Shown in pieces: positions 25,334 to 37,077 of a stretch of DNA of 38,776 nucleotides. Under the pieces are notes generated by a model. It was given only the letters and a program-made list of their open reading frames with translations, had not been told where the DNA came from and did not search any database. This stretch comes from a virus. A program made the position numbers and the translations under genes. The stretch's first letter is position 1. Each line of letters starts with the position of its first letter. The DNA is taken from IMG/VR virus record IMGVR_UViG_3300020438_000103, positions 1-38,776 of that record; one strand, written 5' to 3'.

Positions 25334-25361
25334 GAAAAAAGTGACCTAGTGGCGGTCACTT
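25334..25361 (-). terminator. Intrinsic terminator enclosing a stop codon
   Basis: A 6-bp stem GTGACC/GGTCAC with a 7-nt loop is followed by TTTTTT on the minus strand. The TAG stop of the 56-residue gene lies within the hairpin, across the loop-stem boundary. Confidence 0.8.
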
Positions 25362-25522: not shown

Positions 25523-25576
25523 ATTATACACACAAAAATGCCCCTAATGGGGCAAGTGTGTTCAGTTCGTGGATTG
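25523..25576 (-). promoter_or_regulatory. Palindrome + -10 promoter for the 56-residue gene
   Basis: -10 TATAAT at 25523-25528; near-palindromic upstream element CAATCCACGAACTG at 25563-25576; 34 bp between them. No -35 hexamer at the expected place. The terminator of the preceding operon lies inside the spacer, and the TGA of that operon lies in the upstream element. Confidence 0.7.
25534..25554 (-). terminator. Intrinsic terminator
   Basis: Stem TGCCCC/GGGGCA with ATTA loop, followed by TTTTT on the minus strand. It ends the three-gene unit 26136-25562 and sits between the upstream element and -10 box of the next promoter. Confidence 0.85.
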
Positions 25577-25705
25577 GCACAGGTCGGGGTCAACCTTGCA
25601 TAGTGCTTCCATTCTTTGTTGTTGCATTTGGTCAACGCTTTTTATGGCGTTAGTGCCGATATGCACCCCGACCCCAATGACTAAAGCAATAAGAAAAAAT
25701 CTCAT
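25562..25705 (-). CDS. Small secreted or membrane-anchored protein
   Basis: A 47-residue protein (MRFFLIALVIGVGVHIGTNA, then a hydrophilic tail with two cysteines). The N-terminal 17 residues are a hydrophobic segment preceded by Arg, like a signal anchor or lipoprotein-free signal peptide. Its ATG overlaps the previous stop (ATGA). The tail (SVDQMQQQRMEALCKVDPDL) is helical. Likely an inner-membrane or periplasmic phage factor; function unknown. Confidence 0.7.
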   Translation of the reverse strand: MRFFLIALVIGVGVHIGTNAIKSVDQMQQQRMEALCKVDPDLCQSTN

Positions 25706-25830
25706 GCTAGTTCACACCTTATGCCAGCACCTTTATAAAATGCCAACATGTCCAACGCTTTGGATTTTGAGGAGAATGTAATGACTCTCCCATTGCGTTG
25801 GTCGGTTGCTGTCCAGTAGCGAATGCTCAT
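25702..25830 (-). CDS. Small protein of 42 residues
   Basis: MSIRYWTATDQRNGRVITFS, then SKSKALDMLAFYKGAGIRCELA. It reads like a small single-domain beta-alpha fold (two strands and one helix). The ATG follows the TAA of the previous gene directly (TAAATG) and its TGA overlaps the next ATG, so it is the middle gene of a coupled trio. Function unknown. Confidence 0.7.
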   Translation of the reverse strand: MSIRYWTATDQRNGRVITFSSKSKALDMLAFYKGAGIRCELA

Positions 25831-26136
25831 TTAAATAAATGCGTTGTGGGTTTGTACTTGTGAGATCAGAACGGAGTCTTGCCTGAATTGTTTTTTGTAT
25901 GCCGCAGCGATACAGTTTAAACTCAGCATGTGCTCGTCAACCTCAGAGTCAGCACACTCAAGATAAAAAATCTTGGTGTTCTCTAACTCACCTTTCCAGA
26001 GACCTTCGCCATCTATGAAAGTGCCATACTCAAAATGTGGCATGATCTCACGCTTAATGAATGAGTCCATCATGTGATCGGTGACAGTCCCGTTATCTGG
26101 GATGTTCCTGCCCATGATTAATTCAAGTCGTTGCAT
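25831..26136 (-). CDS. Hypothetical protein, first gene of a trio
   Basis: A 101-residue protein read from the ATG at 26136. The frame is open upstream to 26190, but those codons span the -10 box and T-tract of the promoter, so the hydrophobic leader seen there is an artefact. The sequence contains GRNIPDNGTVTDHMMDSFIK, an acidic middle (GTFIDGEGLWKGELENTKIF) and a C-terminal helical part. I do not recognise the family. Transcribed from the palindrome-type promoter at 26160-26213 with a leader of about 17 nt and no clear Shine-Dalgarno sequence. Confidence 0.75.
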   Translation of the reverse strand: MQRLELIMGRNIPDNGTVTDHMMDSFIKREIMPHFEYGTFIDGEGLWKGELENTKIFYLECADSEVDEHMLSLNCIAAAYKKQFRQDSVLISQVQTHNAFI

Positions 26137-26159
26137 AAGATTTGCTTGAGTACATATAC

Positions 26160-26213
26160 AGTATAGCAAGGCAGCGAGGAAAAAAAGCATGGGGTGGGAC
26201 AGTTTGTGAATTG
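26160..26213 (-). promoter_or_regulatory. Palindrome + -10 promoter for 26136-25562 trio
   Basis: -10 TATACT at 26160-26165, upstream element CAATTCACAAACTG at 26200-26213, spacing 34 bp. No -35 hexamer. A T7 tract lies in the spacer and may be the tail of a weak terminator for the genes upstream. Confidence 0.7.
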
Positions 26214-26277
26214 GTTGTGGTCTTACAGTTCTTTAGCAGTTGCGAGGGATGCCCAAAGAGTACACGCCACTGGTCAA

Positions 26278-26457
26278 CTATGAGAATAGGGGTCGCATGT
26301 AATCTTTAAATTCTTCTCTCATAGCGGTTGCGAGTATGCGTAATTGCTTCTCGTCTGAATTGTTACCATCTGCCACGAGTTCATCATAACACGCTTGAAA
26401 AATTCCAAGATCCGTGATATCATACTCGTGCAGTTGAACGTGATTGAAAAATGACAT
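26278..26457 (-). CDS. Small protein of 59 residues
   Basis: MSFFNHVQLHEYDITDLGIF, then QACYDELVADGNNSDEKQLR, then ILATAMREEFKDYMRPLFS. It looks like a compact all-helical domain with an acidic middle. It begins 3 nt after the stop of the TTG-start gene and is the last gene of the unit 26810-26278. Function unknown. Confidence 0.7.
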   Translation of the reverse strand: MSFFNHVQLHEYDITDLGIFQACYDELVADGNNSDEKQLRILATAMREEFKDYMRPLFS

Positions 26458-26460
26458 AAG

Positions 26461-26619
26461 TTAAACGTAATCAAAAGGACTGGGTTCGCTCACCTTTTCC
26501 CATAGTGTGTCAAAAGCGTCATCCTCCTCTAAGTGAGGTGGCACACCTAGGTCGTGAACGAATAAAAAAAGATTGACCAAAGCAGTTTCCTCTGCCTCGG
26601 TCAATGAAAGATTTCTCAA
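26461..26619 (-). CDS. Small protein of 52 residues with TTG start
   Basis: No ATG is available. A TTG overlapping the stop of the previous gene (TTGA) has a strong GAGGAGG ribosome site 5 nt upstream and opens a frame (M)RNLSLTEAEETALVNLFLF, ending SEPSPFDYV. Both neighbours are tightly spaced, so the gap is best explained by this gene. Acidic, with one predicted amphipathic helix. Function unknown. Confidence 0.65.
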   Translation of the reverse strand: MRNLSLTEAEETALVNLFLFVHDLGVPPHLEEDDAFDTLWEKVSEPSPFDYV

Positions 26620-26810
26620 ATTGCCTCCTCTATTGCCTGATCTAAAGCGACTGAATAGAGTGCAACTTCGTCATGTGTTGTGAGGTCAATGAAAAATCTC
26701 TTTGCAAGATCTTCAAAGATGTCCTCTGCTCTTGCTTCAACAAAATCAAGATTGTAAGACATAAAATCCTCTAATGGTTTGGGTGTGGAGAGATTCGGGT
26801 TAAAGAGCAT
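26616..26810 (-). CDS. Small acidic protein, first of a trio
   Basis: 64 residues from the ATG at 26810 (ribosome site GAGGAAA, short spacing), or 48 from the ATG at 26762 (AGAGGA, 4 nt spacing). Both are plausible, and the second begins the better conserved-looking part, MSYNLDFVEARAEDIFEDLA. Rich in Asp and Glu with two helices. It follows the promoter at 26849-26902 with a leader of about 32 nt. Function unknown. Confidence 0.7.
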   Translation of the reverse strand: MLFNPNLSTPKPLEDFMSYNLDFVEARAEDIFEDLAKRFFIDLTTHDEVALYSVALDQAIEEAI

Positions 26811-26848
26811 TTTCCTCTGGGGTCGCTCACTCTTGCCTCCACTCTTTA

Positions 26849-26902
26849 ATAATACATGAAAAAACCCCCTAGTGGGGGTTGAGTGTACCAGTTTCTAGAC
26901 TG
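26849..26902 (-). promoter_or_regulatory. Palindrome + -10 promoter for 26810-26278 trio
   Basis: -10 TATTAT at 26849-26854, upstream element CAGTCTAGAAACTG at 26889-26902, spacing 34 bp. The TAG stop of the preceding gene lies in the middle of the upstream element, and that gene's terminator fills the spacer. Confidence 0.75.
26859..26880 (-). terminator. Intrinsic terminator
   Basis: 7-bp stem AACCCCC/GGGGGTT with a 4-nt loop, followed by TTTTTT on the minus strand, directly after the basic-protein gene. Confidence 0.9.
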
Positions 26903-27221
26903 TCCACGCTTTGACTTGTTTTACGAGTTGAGCGTGATAGGGTGTTACTACGTCAAAACCTTTGCGTAGGTCTCTTACTAGTTCTTGGATTTCAAATGAA
27001 TGGATTGCCCATCTTGTCTGAATATCCTGCACATAGCGTTGAGGAGAAATGAGTCTAGCAGTTGAAGGACGCTTGAGCGTTGTTACCTTTGCGACTGCCT
27101 TGCCACTTTTGAAGGTTGTGACTGTGACCTTAGAAACTTGTGGTCTCTTTGCTGCTGCTTTACGTGCTCTAGGTTTGCGTGATGCAATTTTCTTAGCAGT
27201 TGGGGCAGTTGCGGTTGGCAT
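26895..27221 (-). CDS. Basic, histone-H1-like N-terminus protein
   Basis: 108 residues from the ATG at 27221. An upstream in-frame ATG at 27248 overlaps the -10 box, so it cannot be transcribed. The N-terminal 55 residues are Lys/Arg/Ala/Thr-rich (TAPTAKKIASRKPRARKAAA, then KRPQVSKVTV), like the disordered tail of histone H1-like or nucleoid proteins. The C-terminal half (RYVQDIQTRWAIHSFEIQEL, then VRDLRKGFDVVTPYHAQ) looks folded. A DNA- or RNA-binding role is likely by composition. Monocistronic, with its own promoter and terminator. Confidence 0.75.
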   Translation of the reverse strand: MPTATAPTAKKIASRKPRARKAAAKRPQVSKVTVTTFKSGKAVAKVTTLKRPSTARLISPQRYVQDIQTRWAIHSFEIQELVRDLRKGFDVVTPYHAQLVKQVKAWTV

Positions 27222-27246
27222 ACGTGAAAAACGTGTTGACTCATTC

Positions 27247-27321
27247 ATTATACAGTCAAAGGGGTTGACAAATTACTCAATCGTTACACTATGAAACAAA
27301 AAAGTCCAGTTTGTCAATTGT
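27247..27321 (-). promoter_or_regulatory. Palindrome + -10 promoter, 55-bp spacing class
   Basis: -10 TATAAT at 27247-27252, upstream element CAATTGACAAACTG at 27308-27321, spacing 55 bp (one of two sites with this longer spacing). The ATG at 27248 lies within the -10 region. Confidence 0.65.
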
Positions 27322-27331
27322 CCTCCATCTA

Positions 27332-27353
27332 TCAAAAAAATCCAGCTGCCTCG
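27332..27353 (-). repeat. Repeated terminator-like element, copy 1
   Basis: A 22-bp sequence (GAGGCAGCTGG, seven T, GAT on the minus strand) that recurs with one extra T at 27794-27816. Here its GGCAG pairs with CTGCC just upstream to give a hairpin followed by T7, so it may act as a second terminator behind the one at 27363. Confidence 0.6.
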
Positions 27354-27362
27354 CATGGGCAG

Positions 27363-27386
27363 AAAAAAACGGTCTTAGAGACCGTT
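27363..27386 (-). terminator. Intrinsic terminator enclosing a stop codon
   Basis: 8-bp stem AACGGTCT/AGACCGTT with a 3-nt loop, followed by T7 on the minus strand. The TAA of the 55-residue gene lies in the loop. Confidence 0.9.
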
Positions 27387-27542
27387 GAGAAAATCGTGCA
27401 TGGATTCAATATATTCTTGGTACGTCCCGTTGAACCAATCGGGTGCGACTCGTTCTTGGTGACGCTTGCATGACTCACGGATCTCACGTTCTGTGTAACC
27501 CTTGTCAAGCAAACCAGAATAAAATTCTGTAATTACGCTCAT
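27375..27542 (-). CDS. Small protein of 55 residues
   Basis: MSVITEFYSGLLDKGYTERE, then IRESCKRHQERVAPDWFNGT, ending YIESMHDFLNGL. Charged, all-helical, with a YTEREIRESCKRH pattern. The ATG overlaps the previous stop (ATGA) and has GGAGG upstream. The stop lies in the terminator loop, so gene end and transcript end coincide. Function unknown. Confidence 0.75.
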   Translation of the reverse strand: MSVITEFYSGLLDKGYTEREIRESCKRHQERVAPDWFNGTYQEYIESMHDFLNGL

Positions 27543-27724
27543 GACTTCGCCTCCTCAAATTTAATGTTGTGATCTGCGTTTGAGATTTTGTCCCAAACTC
27601 GGTTGAAGACTGACTCGTCATGATGCTCGTCAAAATCGTTGACGAAAGTGAATGCCATGACCGCTTGGATCATGTCGTATTCGGTTGAGGTCAGGGTGAC
27701 CTGAAATTCATCTGTTATTCGCAT
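27539..27724 (-). CDS. Small protein of 61 residues, predicted leaderless
   Basis: Read from the ATG at 27724. The frame is open to 27748, but that start lies upstream of the -10 box. MRITDEFQVTLTSTEYDMIQ, then an acidic, His-rich part (FVNDFDEHHDESVFNRVWDK). The ATG begins 7 nt after the end of the TATTAT box, exactly at the predicted transcription start, so the message should be leaderless. Coupled to the 55-residue gene by ATGA. Function unknown. Confidence 0.7.
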   Translation of the reverse strand: MRITDEFQVTLTSTEYDMIQAVMAFTFVNDFDEHHDESVFNRVWDKISNADHNIKFEEAKS

Positions 27725-27730
27725 ATTCTT

Positions 27731-27784
27731 ATAATACACGAAATCCACCCCATTTCTACAAAATGTGTGTAGGTTGTTAAATTG
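27731..27784 (-). promoter_or_regulatory. Palindrome + -10 promoter (degenerate palindrome)
   Basis: -10 TATTAT at 27731-27736. Upstream element CAATTTAACAACCT at 27771-27784 is the least conserved of the set but has the same 34-bp spacing and the same CACAC sequence after it. Confidence 0.55.
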
Positions 27785-27793
27785 GCACAGCGG

Positions 27794-27816
27794 ATCAAAA
27801 AAAATCCAGCTGCCTC
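27794..27816 (-). repeat. Repeated terminator-like element, copy 2
   Basis: Near-identical to 27332-27353 (one extra T). It overlaps the TGA of the 98-residue gene and provides a T8 tract, so it probably ends that transcript. Confidence 0.6.
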
Positions 27817-28111
27817 ATTTACCATGAACAGGGAATGAAAGAGATTCACCTGGTTCTATACCATAGGTGACAGTGGTTTCATTGTCCACTAACTCTTTCC
27901 AGAGATCCTCGTCATGTGATACAATAAACTCCTGGAGTTCATCCTGTGTTAGGTCGCTGTAGTAATCTACTAAGTCATCGTACACATATTGGCACAGGGT
28001 CTTAGTGTCCATGCCATCAACGATGATCTCTGAAAATTGGTCAATAATACTGTCCAGTTGATCCGTTGTTAGTTCTGGTGTCATGCTTGTGGAAAAACCT
28101 GTGGAAAACAT
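27815..28111 (-). CDS. Acidic hypothetical protein preceded by DnaA-box-like repeats
   Basis: 98 residues from the ATG at 28111, or 89 from the ATG at 28084. In the longer form the first codons (FSTGFSTS) are simply the translation of two TTTTCCACA repeats, so the shorter start (MTPELTTDQLDSIIDQFSEI) may be the real one. The protein is strongly acidic and helical (YVYDDLVDYYSDLTQDELQE). Neither start has a clear Shine-Dalgarno sequence. Transcribed from 28181-28234. Function unknown. Confidence 0.7.
   Translation of the reverse strand: MFSTGFSTSMTPELTTDQLDSIIDQFSEIIVDGMDTKTLCQYVYDDLVDYYSDLTQDELQEFIVSHDEDLWKELVDNETTVTYGIEPGESLSFPVHGK
28088..28108 (-). promoter_or_regulatory. Two tandem DnaA-box-like 9-mers
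   Basis: TTTTCCACA on the minus strand at 28088-28096 and 28100-28108, with a one-mismatch copy at 28111-28119. The 9-mer matches the cyanobacterial DnaA box. Three more exact copies follow within 2.1 kb. Confidence 0.55.
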
Positions 28112-28180
28112 GTGGAGAGTGGGTCACAGCACGTGCGAAGTCTGTTGGACGTTACCCTGTAGTATCCCCTCCACATTTAT

Positions 28181-28234
28181 ATAATACATGAAAAATGCCC
28201 ACAATCCAGATGACCGTGGACACTTTGTAAACTG
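28181..28234 (-). promoter_or_regulatory. Palindrome + -10 promoter
   Basis: -10 TATTAT at 28181-28186, upstream element CAGTTTACAAAGTG at 28221-28234, spacing 34 bp. A CCAC/GTGG hairpin with a T5 tail lies in the spacer. The leader to the gene at 28111 or 28084 is unusually long for this region (about 63-90 nt) and contains the DnaA-like boxes. Confidence 0.7.
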
Positions 28235-28261
28235 TCTACTAGTACGTAAAAAAGCAGCTGA

Positions 28262-28405
28262 TCAGCGGTATGATGGTGGATTGCAGTATTCTCCATCGTA
28301 GATATCATCGTCAGTCCAGTGGTGGACTGCGATGTCCTCCCCATATTGTTCTACTAACTCTTTCTTTTGATCTTCTAATTCTACTTTGAAGTTGAAATTG
28401 TCCAT
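28262..28405 (-). CDS. Small acidic protein of 47 residues
   Basis: MDNFNFKVELEDQKKELVEQ, then YGEDIAVHHWTDDDIYDGEY, ending CNPPSYR. Begins 27 nt after the -10 box of the strong promoter at 28432-28461, without a clear ribosome site. The TGA lies in a short palindrome (CTGATCAG) followed by T6, perhaps a weak terminator. Function unknown. Confidence 0.7.
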   Translation of the reverse strand: MDNFNFKVELEDQKKELVEQYGEDIAVHHWTDDDIYDGEYCNPPSYR

Positions 28406-28431
28406 AGTAAGTAACAGATAGTGGTATACTA

Positions 28432-28461
28432 ATTATACAATAAAAGTATAATTGTTGTCAA
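28432..28461 (-). promoter_or_regulatory. Sigma70-type promoter with overlapping inverted repeat
   Basis: TTGACA (28456-28461), 18-bp spacer, TATAAT (28432-28437): both hexamers are perfect. An inverted repeat with 8-bp arms (TCAAATCT, 4 nt, AGATTTGA; 28458-28477) overlaps the -35 box and could be an operator for a repressor. It drives the 47-residue gene. Confidence 0.8.
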
Positions 28462-28633
28462 ATCTTAACAGATTTGATAAAGTATCTCGTTATTTGATAT
28501 AAACCCCAAACAAATAATTCATTGTTCGTTGAAGTCTGTTCAATAGATTTATTCATAAATGTAAAAATATAGAAAAAGGAAAAAACTCAAAAACCCAAAT
28601 TGTTGAGTTCTTGAGTTTATTGAGTTTTGACGA
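28462..28633. other. AT-rich intergenic segment without supported genes
   Basis: About 170 nt of very AT-rich sequence between the promoter at 28432 and the gene ending at 28634. It holds three near-tandem copies of TTGAGTT (28603-28625), part of a terminator, and only a 32-codon frame with no ribosome site. It lies within the DnaA-box cluster, so it could be a DNA-unwinding element. Confidence 0.5.
28577..28609 (-). terminator. Probable intrinsic terminator
   Basis: Stem AACTCAA/TTGAGTT with a 12-nt loop, followed by TTTTTTCC on the minus strand, 25-57 nt after the stop of the 116-residue gene. Extra TTGAGTT copies allow alternative pairings. Confidence 0.6.
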
Positions 28634-28984
28634 TTAGCGACTTATTGTATAACCGTCAAAGAACACATCTGCATTTCTTACTGTTGGTGAACTGTTGCCA
28701 GTGTTACCAATGTACCACGTAAAATCTTTCTGCCATACATGAAATCCATGTAGGAAAGTATCAAGAATTGCATTCAATCTTGATTTGGTTGTTACTGTGT
28801 CCCAACCACAAGATGATAACGTGATGTCACCAAAATTGTTAACAAATGCGATGCGGTTCCCATGTAGGTAAACGGATGTGTCACCTTCTGAGTTCTTAGC
28901 AACCTCAGTGTTTGCCTTACGCCATGTTTGACCATTTGATAGGTTGCAGATAGCGGACTGCATTTCTCTTTCAATTTTACGCAT
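28634..28984 (-). CDS. Conserved-type hypothetical protein
   Basis: A 116-residue protein with a mixed beta-alpha pattern. Features are SVYLHGNRIAFVNNFGDITL near residues 37-56, SSCGWDTVTTKSRLNAILDT at about 57-76, and aromatic-rich GFHVWQKDFTWYIGN. Proteins with the L-H-G-N-x-I-A ... GW-x-T-x-TTxSRLNA arrangement occur as small hypotheticals in T4-like cyanophages, from memory. A TATTAT box (28989-28994) stands only 4 nt before the ATG, and a 19-bp palindrome at 29016-29034 lies upstream. Function unknown. Confidence 0.75.
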   Translation of the reverse strand: MRKIEREMQSAICNLSNGQTWRKANTEVAKNSEGDTSVYLHGNRIAFVNNFGDITLSSCGWDTVTTKSRLNAILDTFLHGFHVWQKDFTWYIGNTGNSSPTVRNADVFFDGYTISR

Positions 28985-28988
28985 GATG

Positions 28989-29034
28989 ATAATAAGAATT
29001 AGGGTTGATAAGGATTACTTGATTGGATCAAGTA
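28989..29034 (-). promoter_or_regulatory. Possible operator palindrome and -10 box
   Basis: Perfect 8-bp inverted repeat TACTTGAT-CCA-ATCAAGTA (29016-29034) spanning the stop codon of the upstream gene, centred about 31 bp before a TATTAT box at 28989-28994. Unlike the other palindromes in sequence and spacing, so listed separately with low confidence. Confidence 0.4.
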
Positions 29035-29284
29035 CTGTGTCTATCTCTGCCTCAATTACACCTAGTAGGGTGAATAGAGGACTGCAATCATCATCATCTT
29101 GAATGAATGGATTGTCCGTTGCACGGTTGAGAGCGTCAGCGTATGCACGTGCTTCTTCAACTGTGAATTCTAATGTGATCATGTTGGAAGGTTTGTTGGA
29201 CATGTACCTATTATAGGCGAGATCAGCAACGATGGGGAGAATAGTGGACAGTTTGTCAACTGGTTCAACTGGTCTCGTGTCCAT
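29015..29284 (-). CDS. Acidic hypothetical protein with two possible start sites
   Basis: 89 residues from the ATG at 29284, or 62 residues from the ATG at 29203 (MSNKPSNMITLEFTVEEARA). The extra N-terminus (VDKLSTILPIVADLAYNRYM) looks protein-like. However, a palindrome-type promoter sits inside it with its transcription start exactly at the 29203 ATG, while another promoter lies upstream of 29284. Long and short forms may both be made. The C-terminal part (FIQDDDDCSPLFTLLGVIEA) is acidic. Function unknown. Confidence 0.7.
   Translation of the reverse strand: MDTRPVEPVDKLSTILPIVADLAYNRYMSNKPSNMITLEFTVEEARAYADALNRATDNPFIQDDDDCSPLFTLLGVIEAEIDTVLDPIK
29210..29262 (-). promoter_or_regulatory. 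Palindrome + -10 promoter inside a gene
   Basis: -10 TATAAT at 29210-29215, perfect upstream half-sites in CAGTTGACAAACTG at 29249-29262, spacing 33 bp. The ATG at 29203 begins 7 nt after the box end, so the message would be leaderless. Confidence 0.75.
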
Positions 29285-29302
29285 CGTTGCGTGACCATTT
29301 GT

Positions 29303-29377
29303 ATTATACAATGAAAAAGCACCCCGAAAGGTGCTTTTGTAATATACTGAAACAATTCGGGGTCAGTTTAATAACTG
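29303..29377 (-). promoter_or_regulatory. Palindrome + -10 promoter, 55-bp spacing class
   Basis: -10 TATAAT at 29303-29308, upstream element CAGTTATTAAACTG at 29364-29377, spacing 55 bp. The TAA of the preceding 50-residue gene lies within the upstream element and a terminator lies in the spacer. Confidence 0.65.
29314..29338. terminator. Intrinsic terminator (bidirectional)
   Basis: 9-bp stem AAAAGCACC/GGTGCTTTT with a 6-nt loop, with A/T tracts on both sides. It follows the 50-residue gene. Confidence 0.85.
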
Positions 29378-29520
29378 TCCTCCTCCCACTTGTGGTCCTT
29401 CTTGAATTTTCCTACATTGGTCTTCTTACCTTTCTTTACTCCTTTGATCTTGTAATCATAAGTTACAACATTCTCAGCATATTCATCTGAATATGTGTTA
29501 ATATTATGTGACTTACCCAT
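29368..29520 (-). CDS. Small basic protein of 50 residues
   Basis: MGKSHNINTYSDEYAENVVT, then YDYKIKGVKKGKKTNVGKFK, ending KDHKWEEDSY. Lys-rich centre, possibly nucleic-acid-binding. The last codons GAC AGT TAT TAA form half of the promoter palindrome. No clear ribosome site; an AATAAAT sequence about 20 nt upstream could be a promoter variant. Function unknown. Confidence 0.65.
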   Translation of the reverse strand: MGKSHNINTYSDEYAENVVTYDYKIKGVKKGKKTNVGKFKKDHKWEEDSY

Positions 29521-29550
29521 TGTTACTAGTTAGTGGTGAACTATTAATAT

Positions 29551-29793
29551 TTATTGATCAATAAGCACACCATCCTTGCGAGATTGTGATACAAACGCAC
29601 CTACACTTCCACCGTCTTGTTGTAATTCATTACTGACAAGTACAGAACACAAGTTGTTAGTGAATTGTGGTACATTTTCACAGTTATATGCATAATTCTT
29701 CGCTATATTGGAAGAATATGTAATAAATACTTCATTTTCTTTAGTTTCAACTGATTCTATCGCTGAACTGAAGAAATTAGAGTAAAGTGTCAT
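29551..29793 (-). CDS. KTSC-like small protein
   Basis: 81 residues from the ATG at 29793 (93 from a GTG at 29832 that overlaps a DnaA-like box). The pattern FFSSAIESVETKENEVFITY, then YAYNCENVPQFTNNLCSVL resembles the KTSC domain (SSxIxxVxYd...L.V.F...Y.Y..VP...). That domain is found alone in phages and at the end of some lysyl-tRNA synthetases. A TATAAT box lies at 29894-29899. The family call is tentative. Confidence 0.55.
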   Translation of the reverse strand: MTLYSNFFSSAIESVETKENEVFITYSSNIAKNYAYNCENVPQFTNNLCSVLVSNELQQDGGSVGAFVSQSRKDGVLIDQ

Positions 29794-29824
29794 CTTTTTG
29801 AATGAATTAGAGGTTAATATGAAG

Positions 29825-29833
29825 TTTTCCACA
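29825..29833 (+). promoter_or_regulatory. DnaA-box-like 9-mer
   Basis: Exact TTTTCCACA on the plus strand, next to a degenerate copy (TTGGGGAAAAC) 6 nt further on. Part of the 28.1-30.2 kb cluster. Confidence 0.5.
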
Positions 29834-29957
29834 GGTATTGGGGAAAACGCATCCCGAAAGACCTCAAAAAGTCATAAAAAGACGTTTTTTAATATTATAA
29901 AAAAGTTAAAAAACTGACTTTCTAAGATTTTGAAGTTTTTCAGATGTCCATGTTTTA

Positions 29958-30011
29958 ATAATAACCGATTTTCTGAGTTTTGTCAAGGTGTGTGTGCCAG
30001 TTTGCTGACTG
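29958..30011 (-). promoter_or_regulatory. Sigma70 promoter with upstream palindrome
   Basis: TTGACA (29981-29986), 17-bp spacer, TATTAT (29958-29963), plus the palindromic element CAGTCAGCAAACTG at 29998-30011 exactly 34 bp upstream of the -10 box. It is the only member of the palindrome set with a good -35. An ATG lies at the predicted transcription start but is followed by a stop after three codons, so the product may be an untranslated RNA. Confidence 0.75.
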
Positions 30012-30117
30012 TCCTCCAAATATTTCATAGTGTTACAGAGACTTGACTTTCGGTCCATTGCGGGCTTAGACAACAAGAACCTCGCACCTTACCTATATTA
30101 ATTTAACCATTTTAAAA

Positions 30118-30151
30118 GTTTTCCACAACACCTCAAAAAACTGTGGAAAAC
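30118..30151. repeat. Inverted repeat of two DnaA-box-like 9-mers
   Basis: GTTTTCCACA (from 30118) and TGTGGAAAAC (to 30151) form perfect 10-bp arms 14 nt apart. Each arm contains TTTTCCACA, at 30119-30127 (plus strand) and 30142-30150 (minus strand). It could be a paired DnaA site or a stem-loop. Confidence 0.6.
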
Positions 30152-30206
30152 TCAGTCATACCAAAGTGCGGACACTTGTGTGTAAAGGGTAGTATCCTTG
30201 TGTATC

Positions 30207-30407
30207 CTAATCAGTGATACCATACTTTGTTAAATCATATTTTGGCATCGCTAATGGTTCTACCTCTACTTTAAATGGAAGACCTATCTTATCCTCTAAT
30301 GTTGATACTAGTTTCTTCTTGCCTATGTCATATGGACATGGTGCATTCTGTAAACACACTCGTAAACACTGTAGTTCTTCATCATTAAATGTAAATGTAT
30401 GACTCAT
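30207..30407 (-). CDS. Small hypothetical protein
   Basis: 66 residues (MSHTFTFNDEELQCLRVCLQ, then a Lys-rich middle and PLAMPKYDLTKYGITD). One helix with two cysteines (QCLRVCLQNAPC), then a short extended tail. It begins 4 nt after the oxygenase stop, as the last gene of the long coupled chain. Function unknown. Confidence 0.7.
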   Translation of the reverse strand: MSHTFTFNDEELQCLRVCLQNAPCPYDIGKKKLVSTLEDKIGLPFKVEVEPLAMPKYDLTKYGITD

Positions 30408-30411
30408 GATA

Positions 30412-31442: not shown

Positions 31443-31449
31443 GATCGTC

Positions 31450-32055
31450 TTATTGTGGTAATCTATTTAACATACTTTCAGACAGTGCAGTGTACATGTT
31501 AAATGATACACTTATTCTATCTACACCAGAACTATTGCGTCCAACATGATGCCAAATATGTCCTGGAAATAGATATAATCTTCCTGATGTTGGTTTAATT
31601 TGGAATTGACCATCTTCATGCATCATCATAGTATATGAAGCACCATCATTACGAGTCAATATTAAACTACCACTGTTCTTTTCTGATTTAATATAAAATA
31701 CACCGACAAGATCAGTTCTACCATGATGATGTATTCTATTACAATCACCAACATGATTTATATTACACCACCAACTGTACATATCTTTTGATATTGATTT
31801 GTCCAGTTTGTTTGTAATATACTCATGACTAGCATCAATACATTTACTCCTCAATGAATTAAATGTCTTGTATGGACTATCCACACTAAATGATCCAAAG
31901 TCAGGTGATTGATATCCACCAATATTACTCTTAAGAGTTGATTTGTAATCCTTTTGCATTAAAATTAACTCAACCTCTAGCATGTCCAATGATATATCAA
32001 TATCAGTAGATGCTACGAAATCAGAGAATATCTCTTGTTCTCGGAAATTACTCAT
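31450..32055 (-). CDS. 2OG-Fe(II) oxygenase-like protein
   Basis: 201 residues from the ATG at 32055, which overlaps the previous stop (ATGA); a longer frame to 32073 exists. It matches the phage-type putative 2OG-Fe(II) oxygenase family (PF13759-like): WWCNINHVGDCNRIHHHGRT with candidate ligands H109/H111, strand pair GVFYIKSEKNSGSLIL, SGRLYLFPGHIWHHVGRN with H169 or H170, and R180 in DRISVSFN. The proximal motif is H-x-H rather than H-x-D, as is common in this family. Substrate unknown. Confidence 0.75.
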   Translation of the reverse strand: MSNFREQEIFSDFVASTDIDISLDMLEVELILMQKDYKSTLKSNIGGYQSPDFGSFSVDSPYKTFNSLRSKCIDASHEYITNKLDKSISKDMYSWWCNINHVGDCNRIHHHGRTDLVGVFYIKSEKNSGSLILTRNDGASYTMMMHEDGQFQIKPTSGRLYLFPGHIWHHVGRNSSGVDRISVSFNMYTALSESMLNRLPQ

Positions 32056-32714
32056 TTCTTTGGTCTCAACCATATATTACCAGAGATTGATACACGTTGA
32101 TCATCACATTCATAATATGGATAAACTTCGTGATTTAGTCTTGCTGGAAAGAATAACAATGTGCCTTCCATCTCTGGTCGTTGTTCATATGTTGTTGTTC
32201 TTAAATTACCAAGACTATCAGTATAATGGAAACAAAATGCTGAGTTAATAGGTGAATTAGCATCCTTTGCATTATAAATCTGACTCTGTTCGTAGTGATC
32301 TGTTGGTATCTTCAACCATGCGGCAAAAGAATACACACCACCATGATTATGTACAGGATTGAACTCATGTTTATTCTGGTAATTAACCCAGAACTGTTCT
32401 AATTTGTATTCGTAGAGATCATCATCACCAATATATTTAAATATTGGTATTTTAGAATGATCATGACTCCATTTCCTCCCATATGTAATGATTAAAGGCT
32501 TCAAGAGTTGATCAAACAGTCTATTGTTTTTATCTTCCATATGAAGACTCTTTTCAATATGACCAACTAATATAGACTTTGCATTATCATGAGCATCATT
32601 AACACAACTCCAAATATGATTGATTAGATGATCATTTAATGGCACTTCAATCCAACCATATGTTGTTGGTTCTTTTAAATAATAGTTGAAGATTATTTCC
32701 TCATTCTTACTCAT
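32052..32714 (-). CDS. 2OG-Fe(II) oxygenase-like protein
   Basis: 220 residues, same family as its downstream neighbour. NPVHNHGGVYSFAAWLKIP with H122/H124, GTLLFFPARLNHEVYPYYEC with H195, and QRVSISGN with R207. The N-terminal 100 residues are helical, with a conserved-looking WSHDHSKIPIFKYIG. The two genes overlap by 4 nt and are probably ancient duplicates, or a pair acting on related substrates. Confidence 0.75.
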   Translation of the reverse strand: MSKNEEIIFNYYLKEPTTYGWIEVPLNDHLINHIWSCVNDAHDNAKSILVGHIEKSLHMEDKNNRLFDQLLKPLIITYGRKWSHDHSKIPIFKYIGDDDLYEYKLEQFWVNYQNKHEFNPVHNHGGVYSFAAWLKIPTDHYEQSQIYNAKDANSPINSAFCFHYTDSLGNLRTTTYEQRPEMEGTLLFFPARLNHEVYPYYECDDQRVSISGNIWLRPKK

Positions 32715-33019
32715 TTTCTACAATCTCCTTCCACTCAGCATACATGCGACCATACATCATACCTTCATTACTCTTGATCGGTGATCCGTCCAATAGTTCC
32801 AATTCTCTCTTTGATAAGTTCCTTGTTGCTTTGATGCTGTACTCCTGTTCCCAGTTGTCCAGTCTTTTTATGTAATTCAAGTGCTAATTGCCTCTCTATT
32901 TCAAATTCAAGTGTACATAATGAGTCATTTAAGAAATGTTCCCATTCATTGTCTTCAATTAGATCATGCAAGTGAGCAATATGTTCAAGTGCGAAGACTA
33001 ACTTAGTTTGTGCATTCAT
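32707..33019 (-). pseudogene. Small helical protein gene with a probable 1-nt frameshift
   Basis: From the ATG at 33019 (ATGA overlap with pyrE) the frame reads MNAQTKLVFALEHIAHLHDL and on to ALELHKK, then turns into Gly/Gln-rich sequence and stops at 32768. If one A is removed from the A5 run at 32865-32869, translation continues in a second frame. That frame gives RLDNWEQEYSIKATRNLSKR, then ELELLDGSPIKSNEGM, and ends at 32707, overlapping the next ATG by 8 nt as its neighbours do. The repaired product is about 103 residues. It could be a sequencing error, a true mutation or programmed frameshifting. Confidence 0.65.
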
Positions 33020-33591
33020 TCGCATATATCATTTAAGAAGAATAGTGAGTGGAATTCTATATTATTATCTTCCCATATCTTATGGTCATCCATCCTATCA
33101 ACAATTGCTACTACTCTATTCACAATGTATCCTGCTTCTCTTAACACATTTACTGCTACCATTGCACTACCACCAGTGGTTGTGACATCTTCTAATACTG
33201 TTACGACACTCCCCTTTGGTGGTTTATTACCCTCTATAACTTCTTTAGTTCCGTATCCTTTGGGATTCTTGCGTATGATGAGTGCATCTATGTGTCTGTT
33301 ACCCTTATAGTATGCCTTCTGAGCAATGCCACACACTAATGGGTCTGCACCTAATGTGAGACCACCAACTGCTACTGCCTCCTTCTCAACTAATTTGAGC
33401 ATGAGATGTGATAGGAGAGCATTCCCCTCACATGACAGTGTGACAGGTTTACAATTGACATAGTGTTCTGATTCTTTGCCAGATGATAGGGTATACTGTC
33501 CATGACGATACGCTCGTTCTTTCAGTAATGCTTTCAGTGTATTCCTATGCATAATATCCTCATGTGGGATAGCATTCTGATATTCTTTCAT
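33016..33591 (-). CDS. pyrE: Orotate phosphoribosyltransferase
   Basis: 191 residues from the ATG at 33591, which overlaps the previous stop (ATGA); the longer frame to 33660 is rejected. It catalyses orotate + PRPP to OMP + diphosphate, in de novo UMP synthesis. Motifs are all present: GQYTLSSGKESEHYVNCK (31-48), VGGLTLGADP (75-84), IRKNPKGYGT (106-115) with the catalytic loop Lys residues, and the PRPP-binding VLEDVTTTGGSA (132-143). Length is typical of bacterial PyrE. It is likely active as a dimer in the host cytoplasm, supplying pyrimidines for phage replication. Composition matches the surrounding phage genes, which suggests long residence. Confidence 0.92.
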   Translation of the reverse strand: MKEYQNAIPHEDIMHRNTLKALLKERAYRHGQYTLSSGKESEHYVNCKPVTLSCEGNALLSHLMLKLVEKEAVAVGGLTLGADPLVCGIAQKAYYKGNRHIDALIIRKNPKGYGTKEVIEGNKPPKGSVVTVLEDVTTTGGSAMVAVNVLREAGYIVNRVVAIVDRMDDHKIWEDNNIEFHSLFFLNDICE

Positions 33592-33770
33592 GAGTTTAAT
33601 ACTATTATTAATCTTGTGATCATTCCTGTTATTAAAATATAGTAGGACCACATTACCCACATACCAAATTGATTGTAGGCACTACCACGTTTATAGTTAC
33701 TGACAGGTGGAATATTTCTCTTCCACACATCACTAGACATATATTCTTTTGGATGGACATTTCTGTTCAT
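33588..33770 (-). CDS. Small membrane protein
   Basis: 60 residues: a hydrophilic N-terminus (MNRNVHPKEYMSSDVWKRNI, then PPVSNYKRGSAYNQF) followed by one transmembrane segment GMWVMWSYYILITGMITRLI near the C-terminus. ATGA overlaps link it to both the zinc-ribbon gene and pyrE, which supports it as a real gene. Probably inserted in the host inner membrane; function unknown. Confidence 0.7.
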   Translation of the reverse strand: MNRNVHPKEYMSSDVWKRNIPPVSNYKRGSAYNQFGMWVMWSYYILITGMITRLIIVLNS

Positions 33771-34021
33771 TTAGGAGTTCTCCATGTATCAGTCTGGTCA
33801 ATTAACCACTCATACTTATCAATGTCCTGCTTACAGGATGTACATGTGAGTGATGTCCATGAGAGATGATGTATACGATGTACACACTGACACTCAGGAC
33901 ACATAATGTTCTTACCATTCTTACCTGCACGTGATCTCTTGTGAATCAGTGCATAATCTTGTACAACAGTTTGTTTCTTACCGTTGACTATGATCTTTTT
34001 AGATGCCTGTATGGGGGTCAT
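33767..34021 (-). CDS. Zinc-ribbon protein
   Basis: 84 residues with C41-xx-C44 (MCPECQCVHRIHH) and C60-xx-C63 (LTCTSCKQDIDKYEW), a four-cysteine zinc ribbon, preceded by a basic region (HKRSRAGKNGKN). Likely a small nucleic-acid- or protein-binding factor, such as a transcription modulator. The N-terminus overlaps the 29-residue membrane peptide gene by 23 nt. Confidence 0.75.
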   Translation of the reverse strand: MTPIQASKKIIVNGKKQTVVQDYALIHKRSRAGKNGKNIMCPECQCVHRIHHLSWTSLTCTSCKQDIDKYEWLIDQTDTWRTPK

Positions 34022-34088
34022 AATGCCTCAAGATGAATAAGATGTACAGTAATGGGAGAGCAACTCCGAAGCTTGCGAGTGTTATCAT
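33999..34088 (-). CDS. 29-residue membrane miniprotein
   Basis: MITLASFGVALPLLYILFIL then RHYDPHTGI: a single transmembrane helix with a positively charged cytoplasmic tail. The ATG overlaps the preceding stop (ATGA). Without it the stretch between the neighbours would be empty, in a region where all other genes touch. Confidence 0.55.
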   Translation of the reverse strand: MITLASFGVALPLLYILFILRHYDPHTGI

Positions 34089-34282
34089 GATTTATTACTA
34101 TCTTCGTGTTTCTCTATTGTATCAAGCATACCATCAAAATCTTGCAAACTCTCAACATCATTTAACAATCGTGCGATGGCATTCACTGTAATAGTGCGTT
34201 CGTTACGTGCGGCATATGCTAAGGCATTACGAATATGTCCTTTAGCATCACCTAGTGATTCAATTACTTGTTTACTTAACAT
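34085..34282 (-). CDS. Small helical protein
   Basis: 65 residues: SKQVIESLGDAKGHIRNALA, then YAARNERTITVNAIARLLND, then an acidic helix. All-helical with a 'VNAIARLL' turn like a small helix-turn-helix or four-helix element, but no clear DNA-binding signature. Overlaps the previous gene by 11 nt. Function unknown. Confidence 0.75.
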   Translation of the reverse strand: MLSKQVIESLGDAKGHIRNALAYAARNERTITVNAIARLLNDVESLQDFDGMLDTIEKHEDSNKS

Positions 34283-34577
34283 AGTGCCACATAGTATAGT
34301 CTTGGGGTTGTAGTTTTAATTTTTTAATCTGAATACATGCTTGTTCATAGTCTCTCAACCATGACTTATTAAATGCATCCTTCTTAACTGGATGAAGATA
34401 CCAAGGAAATGAGTCCTTTATGTTACCATTACCATTACCCAGTTCCCATTTAGCATCTGATTTAACCTTAGTGAAGACTGGTTTCTTATCACTCCTAGTC
34501 TTCCTAACCTTTGTTTCTTTAGTTGTAGTAGTGAGTTTGGACAGATTACTATCCAAACTCTTTTGAGTTCTAGCCAT
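34272..34577 (-). CDS. Basic hypothetical protein
   Basis: 101 residues. The N-terminal 45 residues are Lys/Thr/Ser-rich and probably disordered (KLTTTTKETKVRKTRSDKKP). The C-terminal half is folded, with aromatic residues (DSFPWYLHPVKKDAFNKSWL and LQPQDYTMWHYVK). It overlaps the 48-residue gene by 8 nt. Possibly nucleic-acid-binding by composition; no family recognised. Confidence 0.75.
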   Translation of the reverse strand: MARTQKSLDSNLSKLTTTTKETKVRKTRSDKKPVFTKVKSDAKWELGNGNGNIKDSFPWYLHPVKKDAFNKSWLRDYEQACIQIKKLKLQPQDYTMWHYVK

Positions 34578-34716
34578 TGGTTAGTTTCTTCAACTCCTCC
34601 ATGTTGTGCATGATAGTTTTTGCAAGTGTGAGGTCTTTAGCATTGGTTGCTTTAATGTAATCCATTGCCAATTTCTTCAACTCATCCTCAACTCTTGATT
34701 GATTTATAGAGTTCAT
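34570..34716 (-). CDS. Small helical protein of 48 residues
   Basis: MNSINQSRVEDELKKLAMDY, then IKATNAKDLTLAKTIMHNME, ending ELKKLTNG: two amphipathic helices with Leu/Ile periodicity. The ATG at 34716 overlaps the previous gene by 29 nt. An internal ATG at 34665 would give only 31 residues. Function unknown. Confidence 0.65.
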   Translation of the reverse strand: MNSINQSRVEDELKKLAMDYIKATNAKDLTLAKTIMHNMEELKKLTNG

Positions 34717-34939
34717 TTAACTCTTCCTCGTCAAAAAATAGAGTGGACTCGTTTATATATGAGTCTTTATCCATCCATTCAAACCATTCATCCATGAAAG
34801 CAAGTGCATCATTGTGTCTTTCTTCCGCAAGCATGAGTTGGAAACGCTCTACTATCCATAGAATAAGTTCAGAACGCACTGTGTTTAATCGCAATGCGTC
34901 CTCATCATCCGCAGGATACTCTTTAAATTCTTCACTCAT
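34688..34939 (-). CDS. Acidic hypothetical protein
   Basis: 83 residues from the ATG at 34939 (8-nt overlap with the previous stop). Mostly helical, rich in Glu, Asp and Trp (LNTVRSELILWIVERFQLML, then DALAFMDEWFEWMDKDSYIN). Strong negative charge could mimic DNA or bind a host enzyme, but this is only a thought from composition. Function unknown. Confidence 0.75.
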   Translation of the reverse strand: MSEEFKEYPADDEDALRLNTVRSELILWIVERFQLMLAEERHNDALAFMDEWFEWMDKDSYINESTLFFDEEELNELYKSIKS

Positions 34940-35105
34940 GATCAAACTGTCCTAACTTAGCATCAGCAAGTGACGCAACCATTGTCCATGCAACCTCACC
35001 TGATACCATGTGTTGATCACAGAAATACTCTACAGTATCCTCCATGACTTCCATCATTTCTATCAGTTGTTGTTGCCTTCGTTCACTAATAGGTTCGTTA
35101 CTCAT
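34932..35105 (-). CDS. Small acidic helical protein
   Basis: 57 residues: MSNEPISERRQQQLIEMMEV, then MEDTVEYFCDQHMVSGEVAW, ending ADAKLGQFDHE. The ATG overlaps the preceding stop (ATGA), and its own stop overlaps the next start. Met-rich amphipathic helices. Function unknown. Confidence 0.75.
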   Translation of the reverse strand: MSNEPISERRQQQLIEMMEVMEDTVEYFCDQHMVSGEVAWTMVASLADAKLGQFDHE

Positions 35106-35392
35106 CTTCTAACTACCGTTAAATCGTTTGTAAGGTGGTTGTAAGACAAGAACGCTAATTCGCTAGGTAATACCTCTTCAAGTGCCTTACAGAACTCTAG
35201 AGTGAACCTTGACTGATAACGCCAGAACTTTCTCTCTTCATCAGAGTAGGGTTCTGCATTTGTCTTAACCTTGATAGTATACTGCTTACTTGCCTGTAAG
35301 TCAAGTGGTGCAAGCAATTCTTTAACGTGAGCAACAATCATAGGTGCTGCCTTCTGTACTTTAAGTTTTGTCAATCTAGGAAGATTTTTCAT
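35102..35392 (-). CDS. Hypothetical protein
   Basis: 96 residues with Lys-rich N-terminus (MKNLPRLTKLKVQKAAPMIV), a strand-forming middle (KQYTIKVKTNAEPYSDEERK) and a helix FTLEFCKALEEVLPSELAFL. Mixed alpha/beta. Its ATG overlaps the 24-residue membrane peptide stop (ATGA). Family not recognised. Confidence 0.75.
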   Translation of the reverse strand: MKNLPRLTKLKVQKAAPMIVAHVKELLAPLDLQASKQYTIKVKTNAEPYSDEERKFWRYQSRFTLEFCKALEEVLPSELAFLSYNHLTNDLTVVRR

Positions 35393-35463
35393 TTTGTTAG
35401 TTTAAGATAGAGACCGATAGAGAAGGCGAATACGACATACGCCCAAAATAGTGTGAGTACCAT
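35389..35463 (-). CDS. 24-residue membrane miniprotein
   Basis: The ATG at 35463 has GAGG 7 nt upstream and opens a 24-codon frame made almost entirely of one transmembrane helix (LTLFWAYVVFAFSIGLYL) ending in KLTK. Its TGA overlaps the next ATG. The coupling on one side and ribosome site on the other support a real gene. Confidence 0.6.
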   Translation of the reverse strand: MVLTLFWAYVVFAFSIGLYLKLTK

Positions 35464-35467
35464 GTGA

Positions 35468-35800
35468 TTACCTCATGTAAAGATAACCACCTGCCCAATC
35501 TGCACGTGTAATGCAATCAGTAAATGATTTCTCATCTAATAGATTGTAACGTACATACTTTGCTGGTCCTCTCCATGATGCTGGTTTGAACACATCACCT
35601 GTCTTTTTATCAACAAATGCGTGTACACCACCATGATCTTGCATGATCTTGAAATACTTACGACCTTTCTCTACTGTAAATTCTACAGGACGAGATGATT
35701 CTGAGTATCTGAACAAATAATTCTTCTCTAATGCTTCAACTAATATATCCACTCTACTCGCTACTTGATCTTCTTTTGAAACGAATAGTGTTTTAGGCAT
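35468..35800 (-). CDS. Hypothetical protein with FVDKKTGDVFKP motif
   Basis: 110 residues. After a helical N-terminus (VASRVDILVEALEKNYLFRY) comes a beta-rich part, RKYFKIMQDHGGVHAFVDKK, TGDVFKPASWRGPAKYVRYN, typical of a small conserved protein seen in many T4-like cyanophages (from memory, function unknown). Has its own palindrome-type promoter, a leader of about 19 nt and a good ribosome site (AAGGAG). It starts the unit that runs down to 30.2 kb. Confidence 0.8.
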   Translation of the reverse strand: MPKTLFVSKEDQVASRVDILVEALEKNYLFRYSESSRPVEFTVEKGRKYFKIMQDHGGVHAFVDKKTGDVFKPASWRGPAKYVRYNLLDEKSFTDCITRADWAGGYLYMR

Positions 35801-35835
35801 GTGCTCCTTTGTTTGTTATGTACTTATTATAATGG
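35798..35835 (-). repeat. Duplicated promoter-leader, copy 1
   Basis: 38 bp from the -10 region through the ribosome site to the ATG, repeated at 36098-36135 with three mismatches, exactly 300 bp away. Both copies carry AACAAACAAAGGA before the start. Confidence 0.85.
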
Positions 35836-35880
35836 AAAAAGGGGGCATGTAAACCCCCCTGTGTGACAGTTCTTAAACTG
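35826..35880 (-). promoter_or_regulatory. Palindrome + -10 promoter
   Basis: -10 TATAAT at 35826-35831, upstream element CAGTTTAAGAACTG at 35867-35880 (extends to a GACAGTT-AACTGTC palindrome), spacing 35 bp. The TAA of the preceding gene is at its centre; a terminator lies in the spacer. Confidence 0.75.
35835..35860 (-). terminator. Intrinsic terminator
   Basis: GGGGG/CCCCC stem with an 8-nt loop, followed by TTTTT on the minus strand, after the 75-residue gene. Confidence 0.8.
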
Positions 35881-36100
35881 TCTCTAATATAATATCTCTG
35901 ACTCTTTCTCTGTCTACACTATCTCCACCACCCCATGAGTAATGAACATACTCTAGATCACCTTTCTCAAGTCTTTCAATATACACATCAAGTGCATCTT
36001 CAACCTTCTGACTAGTTAGATTCTCAATAGGATATAATACATCCTCATGTGTTGGTAAGTAGAATGATTCAACATACTCAACGAATTCTGGTCTAGTCAT
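35873..36100 (-). CDS. Acidic hypothetical protein
   Basis: 75 residues: MTRPEFVEYVESFYLPTHED, then QKVEDALDVYIERLEKGDLE, ending RERVRDIILETV. Acidic and helical, with a Gly-rich turn (HYSWGGGDSVD). Ribosome site AAAGGA, leader nearly identical to that of the next gene. Single gene between a promoter and a terminator. Function unknown. Confidence 0.8.
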   Translation of the reverse strand: MTRPEFVEYVESFYLPTHEDVLYPIENLTSQKVEDALDVYIERLEKGDLEYVHYSWGGGDSVDRERVRDIILETV

Positions 36101-36135
36101 GTGTTCCTTTGTTTGTTATGTACTTAGTATAACGG
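36098..36135 (-). repeat. Duplicated promoter-leader, copy 2
   Basis: Second copy of the 38-bp promoter-leader at 35798-35835 (three differences). It implies local duplication of a regulatory cassette, since the two genes behind it are not obviously related. Confidence 0.85.
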
Positions 36136-37077
36136 TAATTTGTTGGGAATGGTGGAAATACGTGCAGTTTGTAAACTGGCATAGTCCTCATGCAACTCAC
36201 ACCCAATGTATGCTCTACTATTCTTCTTAGCTACCATTGCTGTAGTACCTGATCCCATGAACGGATCTAATACTATATCACCCTCCTCACTACCAGCAAG
36301 AATGCATGGTTCAATGAGATCAGGTGGATAGCAAGCAAAGTGAGCACCCTTGTAAGGTTTATTAGTTACTGACCAGACAGATCGTTTATTCTTTTTTGGA
36401 TATGATTTTGCAAGACCTGAATGTGGTTGTAGTCCTGTTCCTTCGTTGTGATACTTTCCTTTGGATCTATCACGTGTTCCCCAGTCTTTTGCTGGTTCTT
36501 TGATTGCTTCATTGTTGTAGTAATACTTCTTACTCTTACTCAATAAGAATATGTATTCATGTGACTTAGTACATCTATCACGCACACTCTCAGGCATAGG
36601 ATTTGGTTTATGCCATATTATATCCTGCCTAAGATACCATCCATCCGCACGTAATGCGAACGCTAACATCCAAGGTATACCAATGAGATCCTTCTCTTTC
36701 AATCCTTCTAGTTTATTACCTCTGCGTGGACACTCATCAGGTAAGTCTTGCTTAGTGTTAGATACACTCTGTTTATTCAATGCTTGACCTTTACCTGGTC
36801 TATAATTATAATATGAATCACCTATGTTCAACCATAATGTACCATCATCCGTAAGACACTCACGTACCTTACGGAAGACATCCACCATGTTCTCAATATA
36901 TTCCTCTGGTGACTGCTCTTGACCTATCTGTTTATCCTCATCACCATAGTTTCTTAAACCATAGTAAGGTGGGGATGTGACACACATGCGTGGTCTCTCA
37001 GCAATACCAGTGGTAATGTGTCCATGTAATGTCTTTAGTGTGTCTCTACAGTCACCAAATAATACTGTATCTTTCAT
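36124..37077 (-). CDS. DNA methyltransferase (SPPY type, beta class)
   Basis: 317 residues. Motif IV TSPPYYGL lies at 34-41 and the SAM-binding motif I DPFMGSGTTAMVAKK at 271-285, followed by AYIGCELHEDY. The IV-before-I order is that of the beta class. SPPY is usual in N4-cytosine enzymes but also occurs in N6-adenine ones, so the modified base is not certain. A target-recognition region lies between (about 110-250). There is no recognisable restriction partner except, possibly, the nuclease-like gene about 0.7 kb upstream. Likely role: protecting phage DNA from host restriction. The ATG overlaps the previous stop (ATGA). Confidence 0.9.
   Translation of the reverse strand: MKDTVLFGDCRDTLKTLHGHITTGIAERPRMCVTSPPYYGLRNYGDEDKQIGQEQSPEEYIENMVDVFRKVRECLTDDGTLWLNIGDSYYNYRPGKGQALNKQSVSNTKQDLPDECPRRGNKLEGLKEKDLIGIPWMLAFALRADGWYLRQDIIWHKPNPMPESVRDRCTKSHEYIFLLSKSKKYYYNNEAIKEPAKDWGTRDRSKGKYHNEGTGLQPHSGLAKSYPKKNKRSVWSVTNKPYKGAHFACYPPDLIEPCILAGSEEGDIVLDPFMGSGTTAMVAKKNSRAYIGCELHEDYASLQTARISTIPNKLPLY
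36126..36178 (-). promoter_or_regulatory. Palindrome + -10 promoter overlapping the methyltransferase gene
   Basis: -10 TATACT at 36126-36131, upstream element CAGTTTACAAACTG at 36165-36178 (perfect arms), spacing 33 bp. The element lies inside the last 18 codons of the methyltransferase gene, so the site is kept within coding sequence. Confidence 0.75.

Follow-up and report, generated by a model that had tools for sequence, protein, structure and literature searches.

The 38,776-nucleotide stretch of DNA analysed here (positions 1 to 38,776 of the IMG/VR virus record IMGVR_UViG_3300020438_000103; hereafter the window) contains eleven copies of a palindromic element, nine of them placed 33-35 bp upstream of a -10 box. 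We propose, with a probability of roughly three in four, that these sites belong to one activator-dependent promoter class of the T4-like cyanophages and the S-TIM5 lineage, serving small, probably early, gene clusters. The source of this 38.8-kb record is itself a T4-like cyanophage: the window encodes gp25-, gp6- and gp8-type baseplate proteins, a Kyanoviridae Gp96 family protein and members of other cyanophage families, and its DNA matches those of Prochlorococcus and Synechococcus phages. All eleven sites lie on the minus strand, among consecutive small genes that precede the gp25/gp6 baseplate block in the direction of transcription.

The dyad and its spacing

Iterative modelling resolved the element as an imperfect 24-bp dyad with the consensus TGTG(A/C)CASTT-N4-AASTG(T/G)CACA, followed by the -10 box at 34 +/- 1 bp. 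Counting the first base of the -10 box as -12, we place the dyad at about -65 to -42, with its centre near -53.5. Between its half-sites, the best-conserved positions are separated by about 11 bp, a distance that would fit a dimeric helix-turn-helix protein bound to one face of the DNA. The sites of the window are given below with the predicted transcription start site (TSS) or neighbouring open reading frame (ORF) where relevant; scores in bits are those under a model built without the window sites.

25558-25581, minus strand: 24-bp dyad, core 25563-25576 CAATCCACGAACTG; spacer with a terminator-like hairpin; 29.2 bits
25523-25528, minus strand: -10 box TATAAT, gap 34; predicted TSS about 25516
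26195-26218, minus strand: 24-bp dyad, core 26200-26213 CAATTCACAAACTG; 30.4 bits
26160-26165, minus strand: -10 box TATACT, gap 34
26884-26907, minus strand: 24-bp dyad, core 26889-26902 CAGTCTAGAAACTG; overlaps the upstream ORF at its stop codon; spacer with a terminator; 30.9 bits
26849-26854, minus strand: -10 box TATTAT, gap 34
27302-27325, minus strand: 24-bp dyad of a long-gap site, core 27307-27320 CAATTGACAAACTG
27247-27252, minus strand: -10 box TATAAT, gap 54
27766-27789, minus strand: 24-bp dyad, the weakest, core 27771-27784 CAATTTAACAACCT; 27.9 bits
27731-27736, minus strand: -10 box TATTAT, gap 34
28216-28239, minus strand: 24-bp dyad, core 28221-28234 CAGTTTACAAAGTG; hairpin in the spacer; 32.3 bits
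28181-28186, minus strand: -10 box TATTAT, gap 34
29244-29267, minus strand: 24-bp dyad, core 29249-29262 CAGTTGACAAACTG; 39.9 bits
29210-29215, minus strand: -10 box TATAAT, gap 33
29359-29382, minus strand: 24-bp dyad of a long-gap site, core 29364-29377 CAGTTATTAAACTG; TTTCAG..TATTACAAA insert and terminator
29303-29308, minus strand: -10 box TATAAT, gap 55
29993-30016, minus strand: 24-bp dyad, core 29998-30011 CAGTCAGCAAACTG; alone in having a TTGACA -35 hexamer (17-bp spacer); 40.2 bits
29958-29963, minus strand: -10 box TATTAT, gap 34
35862-35885, minus strand: 24-bp dyad, core 35867-35880 CAGTTTAAGAACTG; overlaps the upstream ORF at its stop codon; spacer with a terminator; 41.0 bits
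35826-35831, minus strand: -10 box TATAAT, gap 35; ATG of a DUF7717 gene 19 nt past the predicted TSS
36160-36183, minus strand: 24-bp dyad, core 36165-36178 CAGTTTACAAACTG; within the 3' end of a DNA methylase gene; 28.7 bits
36126-36131, minus strand: -10 box TATACT, gap 33

An earlier sequence-only reading of the window had described the element as a 14-bp palindrome at eleven places, and all eleven are present where it put them; the full element is longer, measuring 24 bp and including the flanks GTG(A/C) and (T/G)CAC. The gaps it gave hold for ten sites (34, 34, 34, 34, 34, 33, 55, 34, 35, and 33), and the remaining palindrome, put at 27308 with a gap of 55, is better placed at 27307-27320 with a gap of 54. 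Its count of ten sites out of eleven without a -35 hexamer is correct, since only the site at 29998 has TTGACA, 17 bp before TATTAT. A TAnnnT box with at least five of six matches to TATAAT occurs on the minus strand of the window with a probability of about 2% per given 3-bp interval, so that nine of eleven boxes at gaps of 33-35 are far beyond chance. A model trained on other phages only and applied at a threshold of 14 bits recovered the nine short-gap sites with scores of 28-41 bits and gave one further match, the palindrome at 29364 read on the plus strand. Shuffled windows contained on average 0.20 matches at 14 bits or more and at most two (n = 200).

The same arrangement was observed in independent material. 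When IMG/VR was scanned for CAGTTNACAAACTG with TATWAT downstream, gaps of 20 to 50 being allowed, at least 33, 58, and 18 boxes were found at gaps of 33, 34, and 35, respectively, versus 0-5 at the other gaps among the matches listed; among the same matches, no TATWAT peak was seen on the opposite side of the element. Selection by the palindrome only yielded 388 distinct elements, with 395 -10 boxes at gaps of 33-35 versus about 2-3 per position elsewhere. Clustering reduced the material to 308 clearly different sites (with differences between clusters at more than 22 of 74 bases), in which the gap is 32 in 4 cases, 33 in 61, 34 in 176, 35 in 54, and 36 in 13. A -35 hexamer with at least five of six matches to TTGACA at the proper spacing accompanies 32 of the 308 sites (5 expected), and the -10 box is TGn-extended in 68. 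No spacer position from -41 to -14 exceeds 0.36 bits in these 308 sites, that is, neither a conserved -35 hexamer nor a MotA-type box was found. The earlier description of a palindrome centred near -53 at a fixed distance from the -10 box, with no -35, is strongly supported.

The proposal of a second class with gaps longer by two helical turns holds only in part. The long gaps are real at 27307 and 29364, and a few sites of this kind exist elsewhere (in L127, L119, and L049), all with a gap of 54 and sharing with the site at 29364 a TTTCAG..TTATTACAAA insert; no general second peak near 53-56 was seen among the 388 distinct elements. The long-gap class is a minor local variant resting on few sites. 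The TTTCAG(N)TTATTACAAA-like insert is situated between the dyad and the terminator (window 29303-29377 and the three sites elsewhere), and it may represent a second binding site.

Distribution of the sites among phages

Cultured genomes were scanned with a model trained on metagenomic sites and the window only, the cultured genomes being held out, again at 14 bits or more. Each of eight T4-like cyanophages contains between 5 and 28 sites (mean of shuffled sequences in brackets): Syn9 14 (1.0), P-TIM40 17 (1.0), S-PM2 28 (0.6), P-HM1 16 (1.4), S-CRM01 28 (0.4), S-SKS1 24 (0.4), P-SSM2 23 (0.6), and S-SM2 5 (0.6). The pelagiphage HTVC008M, a relative with a non-cyanobacterial host, has none (0.8). 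Most of the sites are found at 43-53 kb in Syn9 and at 45-55 kb in P-TIM40, in stretches of small hypothetical genes that immediately precede the gp25/gp6 block, and P-HM1 has at 31624 a site of the same kind as the window site 36165. In the divergent cluster at 66-68 kb of P-SSM2, the orientation of the element flips with the direction of transcription, which is the behaviour expected of a promoter element.

Outside the T4-like family, the cyanomyovirus S-TIM5 contains 12 sites, ten of which are located at 163-171 kb with a gap of 34-35. In these ten (positions 163779-170893; L298, 122475-172474), the right half is shifted to AGTGGCCCAA and the gap is mostly 35. The model found no sites in Ma-LMM01, in the T7-like cyanophages P-SSP7 and Syn5, or in the first 50 kb of each of the siphoviruses P-SS2 and S-CBS2; in addition, a pattern search gave no match in Ma-LMM01 and T4. 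On this distribution, the predicted promoter design is a general feature of cyanophages, comprising the T4-like group and the S-TIM5 lineage. The sequence-only reading had regarded the set as controlled by an unknown regulator. No regulator gene was found here either. Promoter sets of this kind are not new, as the element is present throughout the T4-like cyanophages, including Syn9 and P-TIM40, for which an early-gene regulatory element has reportedly been published.

Proposed mechanism, alternatives, and the search for the regulator

Under the mechanism that we favour, a dimeric DNA-binding protein would occupy the dyad from about -65 to -42, its half-sites 11 bp apart placing both subunits on one DNA face. 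The bound protein would contact the host RNA polymerase, standing in for the absent -35 contact, and the polymerase with the main host sigma factor would then open a strong, sometimes TG-extended -10 box. The spacer is locked at 34 +/- 1 bp and is often shared with the terminator of the upstream gene. Long symmetric dyads are typical of repressors, and one could suppose instead that the dyad is an operator through which a phage or host repressor shuts the promoters at a later time, the -10 boxes working alone as extended -10 promoters; the TG extension noted above would suit such promoters. However, the dyad stops short of the -35 region, near -42, its distance to the -10 box is locked, and about 90% of the sites have no -35, whereas a repressor acting by exclusion of the polymerase more typically overlaps the interval from -35 to +10 and could do without a fixed phase. 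We therefore consider repression through the dyad unlikely.

Two further explanations concern the material between the genes rather than a regulator. The dyad commonly extends over the end of the preceding gene, often over its stop codon, and the spacer contains a hairpin of at least 5 bp in 119 of the 308 sites (about 39%; 30 in shuffles), followed by a T-run, as in a terminator, in 62 (about 20%; 4 in shuffles); in the window, such terminators are present at 25563, 26889, 35867, and 29364. The spacer thus often appears to double as the terminator region of the upstream gene, and the palindrome itself might act in RNA as the 3' hairpin of the upstream transcript, being part of a terminator or of a processing site. 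But the arms of the dyad do not covary (tests for dependence gave p = 0.76 for the central G/C and C/G positions and p = 0.32 for the A/C and T/G positions), which means that the dyad is read as DNA, each half-site separately, and not as an RNA hairpin. Moreover, the distance to the -10 box is fixed, and the terminators are formed by hairpins of their own, located downstream of the dyad. A role in RNA is hardly credible on this evidence, and the pattern of variation identifies the dyad as a probable protein-type DNA operator. Finally, the composite operator-terminator-promoter units between small genes resemble promoter-stem-loop (PeSL) cassettes, which PMC4503421 cites as described for other T4-like phages, and the dyad could then be the seam of a mobile promoter-terminator cassette maintained by PeSL-like shuffling, that is, by recombination and not by a regulator. 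Such an origin is quite improbable: outside the dyad and the -10 box the sites diverge widely, forming the 308 clusters described above, and only positions of the kind expected in a protein site are conserved, with half-sites that tolerate specific alternatives.

Activation from the dyad, the reading that we prefer, has several observations weighing against it. The presumed early timing of the site-linked genes leans on what Doron and co-workers reportedly found, as considered below. No DNA-binding-type phage protein was found that is shared by all site-rich phages and present in no site-poor one. The promoter architecture is absent from host genomes, no host regulon having emerged from a strict search of 300 Cyanobiaceae genomes (24 matches versus 22 for reversed-pattern controls). 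Among the phage proteins considered, the "transcriptional regulator" phrog_385, which adjoins phoH, is conserved in cyanophages but is also present in the site-free HTVC008M, and other proteins common to the site-rich phages and absent from HTVC008M include no clear DNA-binding candidate.

The dyad alone, with at most two mismatches, occurs at 12 sites in 8 of 121 host-family genomes versus none in the control; the contexts inspected revealed neither a common gene nor a coherent regulon. A GTDB-wide scan for the dyad yielded 44 stretches, about a dozen of them cyanobacterial and many from Acidobacteria, and only one of the 44 (L181) has a clear -10 box at a gap of 34. This perfect dyad with its -10 box (L181, 4382-4405) is located in a contig binned as the Flavobacteriales metagenome-assembled genome (MAG) TMED113. 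The contig carries cyanophage genes, including a homologue of the window ORF 35873-36100, and looks like a misbinned cyanophage fragment. Two strong dyads also precede two paralogous genes in a Mojavia pulchra MAG (L138, 3107 and 5191), and neither has a good, correctly spaced -10 box.

The sites are distributed by host group rather more than by phage lineage, and a promoter used early requires a factor that is available at the start of infection; together these considerations suggest a slight lean towards a host-side or virion-delivered protein. We marginally prefer a host-side factor over one that is delivered with the virion or made by the phage. A more specific version, in which one host-encoded (or virion-delivered) dimeric protein is the obligate activator at -53.5 for both the T4-like cyanophages and the S-TIM5 lineage, switching the genes on before any phage protein is made, is somewhat less likely than not. 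Since the host makes no use of this layout, it would imply that a host regulator has been recruited to a promoter class found only in phages.

Comparison with known systems and genomic setting

In an RNA sequencing study of 2016, Doron and co-workers reportedly traced the control of early genes in Syn9 and P-TIM40 to a novel regulatory element, one that the T4-like cyanophages conserve. Our element likewise occurs in both of these phages and across the group, in clusters of small hypothetical genes. No description of the published motif was found in the literature searched; the likeness lies in the phages and in the kind of genes, and we regard the two elements as very probably identical. The element class is real, widespread, and sharply defined, and is very likely an instance of this already reported element. 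As far as can be told, the full dyad, the spacing rule, the independence of the arms, the frequent presence of terminators within spacers, and the occurrence in S-TIM5 and the freshwater phage S-CRM01 are new.

The nearest mechanistic analogue that we know is the set of late promoters of phages P2 and P4, where the phage activator Ogr or Delta binds near -55, a good -35 is lacking, and host RNA polymerase acts with its main sigma factor. Here, similarly, the dyad is centred near -53.5 and only about 10% of the sites have a -35. However, the Ogr site is TGT-N12-ACA, whereas TGTG and CACA of the present dyad are 16 bp apart, so that this core is not found, and the strongest conservation is in CA-S-TT/AA-S-TG; moreover, the genes served there are late, and those served here would be of the early type. 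The comparison of phage proteins revealed no shared DNA-binding candidate, although no search aimed at the Ogr/Delta zinc finger was made.

The sequence-only reading had also set the element apart from MotA boxes and NtcA sites, and this distinction is upheld. Middle promoters of T4 controlled by MotA/AsiA likewise combine a -10 box with an upstream phage-specific box instead of a -35, but the MotA box lies near -30, where the present sites have no conserved box. Cyanobacterial promoters of the NtcA/CRP type share with our sites a palindromic activator site upstream of the -10 box and the absence of a -35. In contrast to them, the present consensus does not contain GTA-N8-TAC, which in NtcA promoters of class II is centred near -41.5, and the CRP site is TGTGA-N6-TCACA, whereas TGTGA and TCACA are 14 bp apart in the present dyad. 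PeSL cassettes partly resemble the sites in that a promoter and a stem-loop are packed between small shuffled genes; here, however, the hairpin has an operator upstream of it and the -10 box downstream, and about 39% of the spacers have one and the rest none. For the deleted region of ORFans in S-PM2, the PeSL mechanism was considered unlikely (PMC4503421).

How T4-like cyanophages, which lack the Alt, ModA, MotA, and AsiA functions and whose early and middle control was described as unclear in a 2010 review, steer the host RNA polymerase to their first genes is a standing question (PMC2984593); the absence of motA and asiA homologues from cyanomyoviruses is also documented (PMC2984593; PMC5780444). 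The consensus and the spacing rule allow the promoters, and the many uncharacterised small genes behind them, to be listed in any cyanophage genome, and the dyad provides a specific DNA bait with which the regulator could be captured. That S-TIM5 shares the element and that a close relative infecting a different host lacks it narrows the range of candidate regulators.

Several minor observations concern the window itself. The predicted TSS of the site at 25563 coincides with the ATG of a 56-amino-acid (aa) ORF (25346-25516), the mRNA of which may be leaderless. Rfam and tRNA searches of the window gave no match. The lysine/alanine/threonine-rich 117-aa protein encoded at 26895-27248 (minus strand) has a weak, below-cutoff match to the histone H1-like protein HC2 (E 9e-5). 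At 33016-33660 (minus strand), a 214-aa protein belongs to a phage phosphoribosyltransferase family (phrog_32468, E 4e-89) and is likely the product of a host-derived nucleotide-metabolism gene.

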